Positions 46,967-53,435 of a stretch of 59,469 nt of DNA are shown here, piece after piece. Each line of letters opens with the position of its first letter. Position 1 is the first letter of the stretch. Both the position numbers and the translations under genes were made by a program. The DNA is taken from positions 1 to 59,469 of the forward strand of contig NZ_VTAW01000022.1 in assembly GCF_008245225.1 (NCBI RefSeq), written 5' to 3'. This DNA is from Natrialba swarupiae. GTDB lineage: Archaea > Halobacteriota > Halobacteria > Halobacteriales > Natrialbaceae. The notes under the pieces were generated by a model that was not told the DNA's origin, did not search any database, and was given only the letters and a program-made list of their open reading frames with translations.

Positions 46967-47137
46967 ATGGACGAGTGTCCTCGGTGCCAGGCACCACTCG
47001 AGCGCCTCGCCCTCGGAGACGTGACCACGATCTCCTGTCCGCGCTGTGCGTACGCCGACATTCCAGTCGAACACGAGAGCGCACCGGACGAGCGCGAATC
47101 CTGGCAGGACGCGTTCAACCGATTCTACGAGACGTAG
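46967..47137 (+). CDS. Small zinc-ribbon protein
   Basis: A 56-residue protein with two CPRC knuckles (MDECPRCQAPLERL and ISCPRCAYADIPVE) that form one zinc ribbon, followed by an acidic tail. A TTAAG box is about 29 bases before the ATG. Such mini zinc proteins are common in haloarchaea; the role is unknown. Confidence 0.75.
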   Translation: MDECPRCQAPLERLALGDVTTISCPRCAYADIPVEHESAPDERESWQDAFNRFYET

Positions 47138-47177: not shown

Positions 47178-48203
47178 TTACTCGCTCGCAGCGGCCGCTT
47201 CCGCCTCGTCTTCGTCCTGGTCGACGTCCTCGTCGGACCGTGCGGCAACGAGTCCACCGCGTGCGACGCTGTACAGCGGTTCGCTCGCGTGAGAGACGCC
47301 GCTGATCGAGAACGGGATGTTCGCGTCCTCAAGATGGTCGCGGAACAGCGCCTCGAACCCGTCCGGACTCGAGGTACCGCCGGTGACGACGACCGGAACG
47401 TCGAGACCTTCTTCGACGTCCTCCTCGTCGACTTCGGAGACGATGTTCTCGATGACGTAATCGAGCAGGTTCTCGTAGTAGATCGACACTGCGCCTTCGA
47501 CGCCGCCAACGTCGGTGGTGAAGTCGAGTTCGAAATCGTCCTCTTTGATCGACGTGACTTTGTCGACGGGCGTCCCGGTCGCGCGAGCGGCCTGCTCGTC
47601 GACCCAGTCGCCACCGCGGGCGACGGAGAACTTCATGACGGGGACCGCGTAGTAGGCGAGACAAACGTTCGTCATCCCCGCACCGAAGGAGATGCCGAGA
47701 CCGGTGAAGTTGTTGTCCGCGAGTTCGCTGTAGATGACGGACATCCCCTCGTTGATCGGCTCGGCGTCGTAGCCCATGTCGTTCAGGAAGGACTCGATCG
47801 TCTTCTGGTGGTAGAGCGTCGAAAGGTCGGAGTCGATCGGATCAGCGGGCGTCGAGAAGTACAGTTTCTCGTCCGGATAGCCGGGCTCGCCGACGACCTG
47901 TTCGATGATGAGTTTCATCATCGGGATCGCGCTCTTCTCGTCGTTCGAGAGGATCCCGTGTTTCATCGGACGCCGCGTCTCCTTGTTGAAGATGTTCGCG
48001 AAGTTGAGGGCGTCGTCGCCGACGACGTACACCTTGTCGTCTTTGCGGATGTGAAGGACTTCGCTTCGCGAGAGCATCTGCTCGGCCATATCCGAGTACT
48101 CGATCTCTACGAAGGAGTTACGCTGTTGCACGAAAACCGTATCGTTCCCATCCTGCTGTGCTGACAGGATGTTCATCGTTCCAACGTCTAGGCCTTTGGC
48201 CAT
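47178..48203 (-). CDS. Salactin-type actin homologue
   Basis: A 341-residue actin/MreB/ParM-fold ATPase that closely resembles salactin, the dynamically unstable filament-forming protein of Halobacterium salinarum. Phosphate-1 is [12 protein letters not shown] at the N-terminus, phosphate-2 is [16 protein letters not shown] near residues 170-185, and the adenosine motif is [12 protein letters not shown] near 275. The last 25 residues are acidic and Ala-rich. Salactin forms filaments from the poles and aids chromosome partition at low phosphate. It has its own promoter (TATA at 48228-48233), so it is expressed apart from the upstream membrane gene. Confidence 0.9.
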
Positions 48204-48205
48204 AG

Positions 48206-48233
48206 TTGGCCAAGGTGGCCGACGGATTATAAA
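48206..48233 (-). promoter_or_regulatory. Salactin promoter with phased GGCC repeats
   Basis: The complement of TATAAA at 48228-48233 is centred 27 bases upstream of the ATG at 48203: a leaderless promoter. Between box and start, GGCC occurs at 48217 and 48208 (the latter inside the palindrome TTGGCCAA, 48206-48213), and continues into the gene at 48198 and 48191. Spacing of 7-10 bases suggests protein binding on one face, a repressor position. Repression is inference. Confidence 0.5.
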
Positions 48234-48300
48234 TCTATGTGCCTTAATTCTATTTGAAAAGATCCGAGAACAATATAATATTTACCAAGATAATACCGTC

Positions 48301-49209
48301 TTAATTTCTGGTGAGAAGGGTCCGGATACGATCGAGCAGACTCGAGACGGCGGATTCGGATTCGGTTGCCGACGACGATGCTTCGTTAGCCTGTTGCTCC
48401 TCACGGAGCTCTCGCAGCTTTGCGGTCTGGTCGTCGACGGTCGAACTCGAGGTAGTCGTCTTCGTCTCCCCGCCTTTGAGCCCCTTGAGACCGGCGACCT
48501 GCGAGTCGACTCCGCTCGAGCGCGTCGTCTTGGCCTGGACGTCCACGTCGATGTCGTCGAACTCGTCTTCGGAGAACGTCAGGCGACTGTGTTCGGTCTT
48601 CTCGACGCCACCCCACGAGAGTTCGACGCCGTCCATCGCCTGGTCGATGTCACGGCGGATCTCCTCGTCGGAGTACGACTCATCGTCGGACTCGTCGGAT
48701 TCGTCGTCCTCGGCGTCGACGCGGTCGGCCGCACGGGCCATATCGAGATAGTGAGCGATCAGCGCCGCGCCGGTCGAGGCGGTGAGCCCGGCCATGCCGA
48801 CGGCGTAGACGGCGACGACTTCGGCGGTGTAATCGTTTCCGACGCCGTACCAGTCGTAAGGGTACGCGATCAGGAAGCCGACGATGGCGGCGAACGTCAC
48901 TGCGACAGCACCGACGGACGCATAGCGGACCCGACGCTCGCTGGGAAGCAAGACGACGATACCGAGCATCGTTATCGGGAGAGCAGCCATCACGATCGCG
49001 TACGCCGGCTGTGCCCACCTGACGTGCTCCGTGGTGCGCGGCTCTAACGTATTACTCCAGAGGAACAACACCAGTGCGACCGCTGCCAGTGCGATTCCAC
49101 CGATGAACAGACCGAAGCCGAGGTAGACGTCGGTCCGGTCTTCCGGTTCGCCGATGTATCGACGGTAGAGGTCGAATAGATAACCGTTTTCGGGCGATTC
49201 CGCTGCCAT
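48301..49209 (-). CDS. Four-helix membrane protein with acidic cytosolic tail, salactin neighbour
   Basis: A 302-residue protein. Four membrane helices lie at about 28-50, 67-89, 97-117 and 130-152; then a long acidic Ser-rich cytosolic tail with charged helices (VDDQTAKLRELREEQQANE) extends to residue 302. I recall haloarchaeal relatives labelled as permeases with DUF7139, without known function. A strong Shine-Dalgarno-like GGAGG lies 6 bases before the ATG, unlike the leaderless genes around. It is 97 bases upstream of salactin on the same strand, so a membrane anchor for the filament is a reasonable guess only. Confidence 0.8.
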   Translation of the reverse strand: MAAESPENGYLFDLYRRYIGEPEDRTDVYLGFGLFIGGIALAAVALVLFLWSNTLEPRTTEHVRWAQPAYAIVMAALPITMLGIVVLLPSERRVRYASVGAVAVTFAAIVGFLIAYPYDWYGVGNDYTAEVVAVYAVGMAGLTASTGAALIAHYLDMARAADRVDAEDDESDESDDESYSDEEIRRDIDQAMDGVELSWGGVEKTEHSRLTFSEDEFDDIDVDVQAKTTRSSGVDSQVAGLKGLKGGETKTTTSSSTVDDQTAKLRELREEQQANEASSSATESESAVSSLLDRIRTLLTRN

Positions 49210-51472: not shown

Positions 51473-51497
51473 GTAGTGGTGAGGTAACGTTGTGGCC

Positions 51498-53435
51498 ATG
51501 AGTAGCACCGCCGACACGGACGACGTGATCGAGGTCAGTTCGGACGGGTTGACCGTCCAGAAATCGTTCACGGCGGACGAGTTTCCCGTCCCGGCGATCC
51601 GCTTCGAGATCGAATCGGATCGCGACGAACAGGTGACGTTTCGACTCTCCGAGGACATTCCCGAATCGTTTCCGATGGACAAAGTCGGCTTTCACCCCGA
51701 CTACCACAGCGACGAGTGGACCGCGTTCCAGGACAACCACGTCGAGTTCAGTTGCTCGCTCGAGCCAGCGGAACAACTCGTAACCGTCTACGGCATTCGA
51801 GTCGACGACGACCAATCTGCGGCGCAGTTTCTGACCGAGCCGGCGATCGTCGAAGTGAGCTCCGAGGAAGACGGCGAGTCCGACGATCGCGAGGAGGTTG
51901 ACGACAGCGTCATCGACAGCATCGTCTCGGAAGACCGGAATCAGCCAGTAAAGGACATGCTCTCCGGTGACGCGGACTCCGTTCCGGGTCTCGAGAACGA
52001 GGAAACCGACGACGACGCCGACGACGAGGATCTCGATCTGGATCTCGACCTCGGCGATGTCGACACCGAACCCGTCGAGACTCCGGACGAGGAAGAAGAG
52101 CCCGACGACACGCCCGACATCGATCTCGACTTCGGCGAGGAAGAGATCCCGGAGCCCGAGGAATCGTCCGAACCGGCCGACTCCGAGGACGAACCGGAGA
52201 TTACGCTCGGTCTGGGCAGCGAGGACGACGAAGACGATGCGGGCGTCGAATCCGATACCGAACCAGACTCGGACGTCGAACTCGAACTCGAGGACGAGAC
52301 GTCCGACCTTGAGGAAAGCGACGACGAAGATGCGGAACCTGACGTTGGCGTCGAACCCGAAGACGCCGACGTCGAATCCGAAGACGACGGCGCGGACCCG
52401 ATCGAACTCGAGACCAAACCCGCTGATACCGACGACGAAGAAGCCGAAGACGACGCGGATGCCGAAACCGACGTGGACGCTGAATCAGTGGAAGTCGACA
52501 CGGATGTCGAACCAGAGGAGGCCGACGCGGATGTCGACGCCGAACCCGACGAGGTCGACGAGACCGAGCCGAGCGAATCCGACGCGGATCCCCTGGAAGA
52601 ATCGCCCACGGACCCCGGTGAAGCCGACGTTTCGGTCGACGTCCCGACCGCCGAATCGCTCAGCGCACAACTCGCGGCCGAGCTCCGTGACGGATCCGTC
52701 GACGACGACGATCTTTCGGTACTCCGGTCCGAACTCGAGATCGAACCGTCGAACCTCGAACAGGTGAAAATCGACCACCTCCAGTCACGGGTCGAGGAGG
52801 TCGCCGCCTACGCAGGCGCGCTCGAGGAGTTCATCGGCGAACACGGAACGGGAGCGGAGATCATCGAGAGCCTTCGAAACGAAGTCGCCGAGTTCGACGA
52901 GGAACTCCATACGATGGGGAACCGACTCGACCGAACCGAAAGCCAGGTCGGCGACGTCGAATCCGAACTCGAGACGCTCACCGAGTGGACGACCGACCTC
53001 GAAGGCGACGTCGAAACGCTCGACGAGCGTGCCGAATCAACCGAATCGGAACTCGAATCGCTCGGAGACGGGCTCGATTCGGTAGAGGCGGACGTACGCT
53101 CCGTCGAAGACGACCTCGAATCGGGTCTCGAAGACCTGGAAGGCGCCATCGCCGAACTCGACGCGACGGTCGACGACGTCAAACGCGACGTGACCGACGT
53201 CGAAACCGACGTCTCGAGCGTGTCGGGTGAGGTCGACGATCTGGAGGGGACCGTCGAAGCGGTCGAAGAGGACGTCGACGACCTCGAAACCGGGTTGGGA
53301 TCCGTCGAAGAGGACGTCGACGATCTCGGGGAAACGCTCGAAACCGTCGAAGACGACCTCGAAGACGTTCGCGCGGACGTGACGGCGATCCAGGACTGGC
53401 GCGACCAGCTCGGTTCGATGTTCTCGGAGAACTGA
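51498..53435 (+). CDS. Very acidic coiled-coil protein of unknown function
   Basis: A 645-residue soluble protein in three parts. Residues 1-115 are a compact beta-rich domain (DGLTVQKSFTADEFPVPAIRF, then FPMDKVGFHPDYHSDEWTAF) that looks conserved. Residues about 120-385 are an extreme Asp/Glu repeat region built of short EPD, DVE and DAE units. Residues about 430-640 form a long heptad-rich coiled coil (repeated VESELE, VEDDLE, VEEDVDDLE). It resembles a structural or scaffold protein; I do not recognise the family. It sits between genes with their own promoters, 3.3 kb from salactin. Confidence 0.75.
   Translation: MSSTADTDDVIEVSSDGLTVQKSFTADEFPVPAIRFEIESDRDEQVTFRLSEDIPESFPMDKVGFHPDYHSDEWTAFQDNHVEFSCSLEPAEQLVTVYGIRVDDDQSAAQFLTEPAIVEVSSEEDGESDDREEVDDSVIDSIVSEDRNQPVKDMLSGDADSVPGLENEETDDDADDEDLDLDLDLGDVDTEPVETPDEEEEPDDTPDIDLDFGEEEIPEPEESSEPADSEDEPEITLGLGSEDDEDDAGVESDTEPDSDVELELEDETSDLEESDDEDAEPDVGVEPEDADVESEDDGADPIELETKPADTDDEEAEDDADAETDVDAESVEVDTDVEPEEADADVDAEPDEVDETEPSESDADPLEESPTDPGEADVSVDVPTAESLSAQLAAELRDGSVDDDDLSVLRSELEIEPSNLEQVKIDHLQSRVEEVAAYAGALEEFIGEHGTGAEIIESLRNEVAEFDEELHTMGNRLDRTESQVGDVESELETLTEWTTDLEGDVETLDERAESTESELESLGDGLDSVEADVRSVEDDLESGLEDLEGAIAELDATVDDVKRDVTDVETDVSSVSGEVDDLEGTVEAVEEDVDDLETGLGSVEEDVDDLGETLETVEDDLEDVRADVTAIQDWRDQLGSMFSEN

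Follow-up and report, generated by a model that had tools for sequence, protein, structure and literature searches.

The two genes at positions 47178-49209 of the 59,469-nucleotide stretch analysed here (the window) encode the archaeal actin volactin and what is probably its dedicated membrane receptor, whose cytosolic tail would hold or nucleate the filament ends at the membrane. That volactin and the membrane protein are functional partners dedicated to each other is nearly certain. Volactin, salactin and DUF7139, the family of the membrane protein, are already named families; the new element would be a membrane receptor, from a family new to this role, that serves an actin. The pairing of volactin with a DUF7139 protein was not found in the literature, the available text of PMC10869688, PMC10746226, PMC7617734, PMC12186497 and PMC13286277 included, with supplements and most subscription journals outside the scope of the search. 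The main text of the volactin paper (PMC10869688) mentions neither an operon nor a transmembrane partner. The literature searched yielded no title or abstract on the volactin partner or on the zinc-ribbon protein encoded beside volactin, no report of how an archaeal actin of the volactin kind is linked to the membrane, and no publication naming HVO_2014, HVO_2016 or DUF7139, both locus numbers being guessed Haloferax neighbours. The tail of the partner is a strong candidate, open to testing, for what connects archaeal actin filaments to the membrane, a link missing so far.

The volactin gene and its membrane partner

The two genes and the conserved parts of the partner are located as follows.

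47178-48203 (−): volactin gene, intact, 341 aa, predicted actin fold and acidic C-terminal stretch
48301-49209 (−): volactin partner, intact, 302 aa, DUF7139 membrane protein with a cytosolic tail
48700-49137 (−): membrane domain of the partner, four helices, residues 25-170 (AlphaFold2)
48628-48669 (−): tail helix A, residues 181-194, with DIxxAM, followed by WGGVE at residues 199-203 (alignment A1)
48472-48507 (−): tail helix B, residues 235-246, VDxQVxGLxxLKGG, low confidence (block pLDDT 51-53)
48310-48438 (−): tail helix C, residues 258-300, starting with VDDQTAxLxELR (AlphaFold2 helix)

The first-pass annotation placed a salactin homologue beside a membrane protein. An actin-fold gene does occupy that place, but its family is Volactin: the protein matches Pfam PF25216 with 460.9 bits, its residues 1-321 covering the whole profile 1-321 (cut-off 35 bits), and gives no match to the Pfam Salactin profile PF25229 at E up to 0.1 (cut-off 27.1 bits). 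The genome search found one volactin copy in the window's genome, and no salactin match there or elsewhere in its family, f1, of which 37 genomes were sampled. The Pfam family and the lack of a genome match rule out salactin as the identity of this actin. The AlphaFold2 model of volactin has an actin fold (mean pLDDT 89.1), the nearest solved folds in Foldseek being MamK (E 3.7e-16) and MreB (E 3.3e-15). The protein begins with MAKGLDVG; a long charged N-terminal tail of the salactin type is absent from it, and an acidic stretch is found at the C-terminus instead. Such an N-terminal tail is described for salactin in the available text of PMC10746226, which also reports filament growth from the cell poles and a poor synteny of salactin even inside Halobacterium; the poor synteny fits salactin being a different gene from volactin. 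Two actins of other haloarchaea scored 590 and 605 bits with PF25229 and just 27 bits with PF25216, below the cut-off of 35. Judged by these profiles, volactin and salactin are separate families.

The volactin of Haloferax volcanii (HVO_2015, VolA; PF25216) belongs to the same family as the window's actin, and four named Haloferax loci encode a volactin 83% identical to it with the partner kept upstream. The salactin of Halobacterium salinarum (PF25229) is also a haloarchaeal actin fold, but of a separate family with a charged N-terminal tail. The H. volcanii control genome matched the Volactin family; it was above the cut-off for Salactin as well, which, if that match is genuine, would be at odds with the available text of a 2025 paper, where volactin is called the only identified actin homologue in H. 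volcanii (PMC7617734).

Volactin-type domains also occur in other arrangements. A second one lies inside a frame of 767-1344 aa in 25 of the 145 haloarchaeal genomes sampled (L114-L124; for example L114:5812-9363 on the + strand and L117:4176-6563 on the − strand). The three frames read by eye, one of them Pfam-scanned, have a long coiled-coil-like region after the actin, and a hydrophobic segment is located at the end of 11 of the 11 examined; these frames would apparently encode an actin with its own membrane anchor in one chain. Genome G106 (L183, L184, L193) carries three tail genes and three volactin places, with one volactin divided between two overlapping matches in different frames.

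The partner gene is placed directly upstream of volactin on the same strand, with 97 nt between them. Its product matches DUF7139 (PF23600) with 160.3 bits over residues 10-158 (cut-off 30 bits), the only Pfam family above cut-off; linkers of the RodZ, MreC and FtsA types gave no Pfam match, and a profile search of the PDB gave no relative of solved structure, the best E being 0.43. The description of the partner as a four-helix membrane protein with an acidic helical tail was borne out by four hydrophobic segments (residues 32-50, 70-88, 97-115 and 131-149), by four AlphaFold2 membrane helices (25-53, 60-87, 92-115 and 128-170) and by the composition of the tail of about 125 residues, with 38 D/E against 16 K/R in residues 161-302. 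The model has a mean pLDDT of 78.6, the block means being 80-98 across residues 21-170 and as low as 43-53 in residues 201-260, helix B included. Since the 36 haloarchaeal and 15 other partner homologues compared have a basic loop 2-3 and a loop 3-4 that is not basic, the N- and C-termini are predicted to be cytosolic, and both ends of the partner should face the cytoplasm. The top Foldseek matches were MAPEG-type four-helix membrane enzymes such as LTC4 synthase. With the best match so weak (E 0.12, query TM-score about 0.28), an enzyme fold was not adopted for the membrane domain.

In the tail, AlphaFold2 places helices at residues 181-194, 235-246 and 258-300. Alignment A1 comprises 41 of 44 representative tails (alignment A2, 38 of 44 partners), and in its helix A region G200 and G201 are invariant while D187, A191 and W199 are each kept in 40 of the 41 tails. 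Across all 51 rows of alignment A4, which joins the 36 haloarchaeal and 15 other partners, L241 of helix B and L265 of helix C are invariant. The tail contains two copies of a similar motif, V-D-x-Q-x-x-x-L-x-x-L-K/R; a simple regular expression finds both copies in 24 of 41 haloarchaeal tails and in 2 of 18 other tails, so few that the two-site reading is weak.

Two further DUF7139 proteins are encoded in the window's genome, with tails different from that of the partner: a 973-aa open frame (L134:3145-6066, − strand) with several short-domain repeats after the membrane part, and a 340-aa protein (L135/L082) with a cysteine-containing end. Outside the order, what frames of 536-675 aa in family f12 (G198, G208, G265 and others) share with the partner profile is largely its membrane half; there too, a DUF7139-like domain seems to have been combined with other tails.

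Distribution of the pair

Among the named loci, the best 80 of 170 by volactin similarity, 76 have a DUF7139 gene no more than 900 nt upstream of volactin and on its strand, an arrangement that is not due to chance; the species of these loci overlap with those of the genome sample, and the two sets are not independent. The four exceptions among these best 80 of 170 are L004, L053, L074 and L075; when their genomes and that of L071 were searched, the tail was present in five of five. Near the pair, the window also encodes an acidic protein of 647 aa (51492-53435, + strand), whose C-terminal half is long and resembles a coiled coil; it is kept in 39 of 54 loci of close relatives and in none of 26 more distant ones (best 80 of 170).

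Full-length volactin is found in 86 of the 145 haloarchaeal genomes sampled. The tail profile, built from the 41 tails of alignment A1, also matched 86 of the 145; the genomes are the same, none of the other 59 has the tail, and there is no exception either way. Fragments were excluded from full-length volactin, namely those of G060 (a C-terminal piece) and, outside the order, of G246 (broken pieces only, on one contig), and the co-occurrence counts carry no species-tree correction. The DUF7139 domain alone occurs in 143 of the 145 genomes; hence it is the tail and not the domain that tracks volactin, and the domain itself was rejected as the volactin-specific part. Nine genera (g20, g22, g23, g31, g33, g34, g37, g39 and g40) include both states and all are concordant, which within-genus shuffling would produce by chance once in 7.0e7, without correction for relatedness. 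The tail gene is adjacent to volactin in 71 of the 86 volactin-bearing genomes. In the 15 where they are unlinked both genes are still present; 12 of these genomes belong to genus g20, which is Halorubrum (G108 and G015 correspond to the named loci L074 and L075 by the place of the tail), and the others are G049, G076, with volactin at a contig end, and G129.

Two of the genomes depart from the common arrangement in other ways. A single 146-aa frame of G060 (L133 6187-6627) starts with about the first 41 residues of the partner and continues as the C-terminus of volactin, and its genus-mate G134 has both genes; a single deletion would apparently have removed both genes from G060, with an assembly error as the alternative. 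In G129 (L189), a PQQ-type propeller encoded 1.6 kb from volactin, on the opposite strand, ends in a tail, and a second copy, of the DUF7139 type, is distant from volactin. The propeller-borne tail, the one near volactin, has no DUF7139 membrane domain and fits a simple anchor poorly.

The phylum sample comprised 294 genomes, 241 of them outside the order (294 minus 53 of the same order or closer), and 32 of the 241 contain full-length volactin. Searched at E up to 0.1, the haloarchaeal tail profile found no partners outside the order, the single match being one of 14 bits in G372 (E 0.05). In 18 of 18 outside loci examined, the gene directly upstream of volactin encodes a protein of 223-305 aa with three or four hydrophobic segments. 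These outside partners, 18 of the 32 being included in alignment A3, align with the haloarchaeal ones over 236 columns that take in the membrane domain as well as the tail (hhalign 99.3%, E 2.9e-20), and the three of them tested against PF23600 were all above its cut-off. The outside-partner profile found full-length relatives in exactly the 32 volactin genomes, and in 32 of 32 the gene is adjacent to volactin, on the same strand and upstream. By their alignment, haloarchaeal and outside partners are homologous, tail included, the homology of the tail across the order following from the whole-protein alignment and the two shared leucines (241 and 265) and not from the tail profile alone. The first-pass annotation named a lack of conservation of the neighbourhood as an argument against its proposal; the neighbourhood is conserved both in haloarchaea and outside the order, and the pairing of volactin and partner is far stronger than a single locus could reveal. 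Since the actin-receptor pair extends past the haloarchaea, the system is probably older than the salt-loving lifestyle. The three loci examined of family f15 (L225, L226 and L227) have a gene for an FtsZ-family protein before the partner, tubulin-type, membrane-partner and actin genes standing there side by side.

Alternative readings and the zinc-ribbon gene

The partner could act as a sensor of the membrane state that switches volactin assembly, by nucleation, capping or disassembly, instead of being a load-bearing anchor. A compact four-helix domain followed by a long flexible tail would suit such a role, DUF7139 also carries other tails in the manner of an input module, as the 973-aa frame and the 340-aa protein of the window's genome illustrate, and the published volactin dynamics suggest as-yet unknown binding factors, in the available text of PMC10869688. 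Sensing and anchoring are not separable by sequence alone, but the published filaments are attached by their tips and some tether is needed; we consider a pure sensor unlikely.

A second possibility concerns a small gene at the other side of volactin.

46967-47137 (+): zinc-ribbon protein, 56 aa, with CPRC...CxxC and an ESWxxAxxRF end, convergent with volactin

A single-sequence query of the 145 genomes detected this protein in 84, every one of them among the 86 with volactin, and none of the 59 others has it at full length; a profile search added only G099, with a partial match of 29.7 bits in a 365-aa frame (alignment A6 contains 16 zinc-ribbon proteins). The gene is within 3 kb of volactin in 70 of the 84 genomes: in 67 it is placed downstream in convergent orientation, and in 3 it precedes volactin on the same strand. 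In 12 others, all of them of genus g20, it is beside the unlinked partner, and in two (G002 and G021) it is far away. Neither G130 nor G132 of genus g15, both of which keep volactin and tail, yielded a match, and none turned up within 8-12 kb around volactin in the 18 outside-order loci with the pair. The zinc-ribbon protein belongs to the haloarchaeal module, perhaps as a regulator, and such a microprotein would be a small, easily missed part of it. As a third tracker that in 12 genomes accompanies the unlinked partner and not volactin, it would also be compatible with volactin and partner acting in one pathway without contact, the tail binding the zinc-ribbon protein, the chromosome or something else. 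However, the pair is kept in genus g15 and in the outside loci where the zinc-ribbon protein was not found, which makes it unlikely as the general target of the tail, and we regard a pathway without contact as improbable.

The earlier proposal of a polar membrane anchor for salactin has very little probability left. Salactin and volactin are both haloarchaeal actins, and the volactins of four genomes score weakly with the Salactin profile (19.7-25.8 bits, short of the cut-off), but the Pfam families are separate, salactin is missing from the window's genome and from the f1 genomes mentioned above, and its presence does not track the partner tail: the 145 haloarchaeal genomes divide into 36 with both, 34 with salactin only, 50 with the tail only and 25 with neither, so that the two are not associated (Fisher p 0.066).

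Chance, or a gene order inherited without any functional link, was rejected as next to impossible: close relatives do keep other neighbours, diphthamide synthase being near in 48 of the 54 named loci with volactin at least 92% identical, but of the 26 more distant loci (volactin below 92%; both groups from the best 80 of 170), 24 still have the partner nearby and 21 the zinc-ribbon gene, against 3 with diphthamide synthase and none with the next two genes, and the co-occurrence of volactin and tail survives in the unlinked genomes. A defence function was likewise rejected, with no PADLOC match.

Proposed mechanism and comparison with known systems

The reading that we prefer is that of volactin with a dedicated membrane receptor. 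In Haloferax, volactin filaments are reported to span the cytoplasm with their tips bound to the membrane, and their dynamics have been likened to those of ParM, according to the available text of PMC10869688. As the actin of the pair is volactin, the relevant question is this reported attachment of the filament tips and not salactin at the poles. A tail that is present if and only if volactin is, in the genomes sampled, and that is flexible and borne by a membrane protein, is the obvious candidate for it. The membrane protein had first been put forward as an anchor for salactin; as an actin anchor it is a candidate strongly supported by the conserved pair and by the coincidence of the 86 volactin and the 86 tail genomes, with volactin in the place of salactin.

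In the model, the receptor would be held by its four membrane helices with the tail reaching into the cytoplasm. There the tail would bind volactin, perhaps through its two similar motifs; that this binding is direct seems quite likely. As a result, filaments would become attached end-on to the membrane or would be started there. For such end-anchoring or end-nucleation by the partner, which we infer from the published Haloferax imaging, the chances appear even. The supply of actin subunits might be explained by an element located between the two genes.

48227-48233 (−): TATA-like box, some 30 nt upstream of the volactin start codon (ATG)

Of 167 haloarchaeal loci, 140 have TTTAT, TTATA or TTTAA starting 28-32 nt upstream of volactin; with each distinct upstream sequence counted once, the figure is 126 of 152. 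Eight further 5-nt bins have such a start in 0-8 loci each. This enrichment suggests that haloarchaeal volactin, despite following the partner, probably has a promoter of its own inside the pair; with the TATA-like box before volactin in most loci, a strict operon was rejected as the cause of the haloarchaeal pairing. From such a putative promoter, more volactin than receptor would be produced, which is what a polymer subunit requires.

A more elaborate version is possible and rather doubtful: the pair would be ancient, predating the split of the haloarchaea from other Halobacteriota, the two-helix tail would gather two subunits and start a filament end-on, and the zinc-ribbon protein would be a later regulator, lost together with the pair. 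The mutable targets are one gene, a tail of 125 residues and three conserved segments, in the tractable genus Haloferax.

Among bacterial actins, MreB lies along the membrane and has the membrane partners RodZ and MreC. In the plasmid system ParM-ParR, a short helical peptide of ParR binds the end of the actin ParM; ParR is a DNA-bound adaptor and not a membrane protein. The volactin pair resembles the MreB system in that the cytosolic part of a membrane protein would reach the actin, and the volactin fold is near that of MreB; it differs in that the partner matches DUF7139 only and that volactin filaments, in the available published text, are reported to touch the membrane by their tips only. 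From ParR the volactin partner differs in being a membrane protein, without sequence relation to ParR in the Pfam scan, whereas the binding of filament ends by a short helical segment, as in ParM-ParR, is the very mechanism proposed here for the tail.
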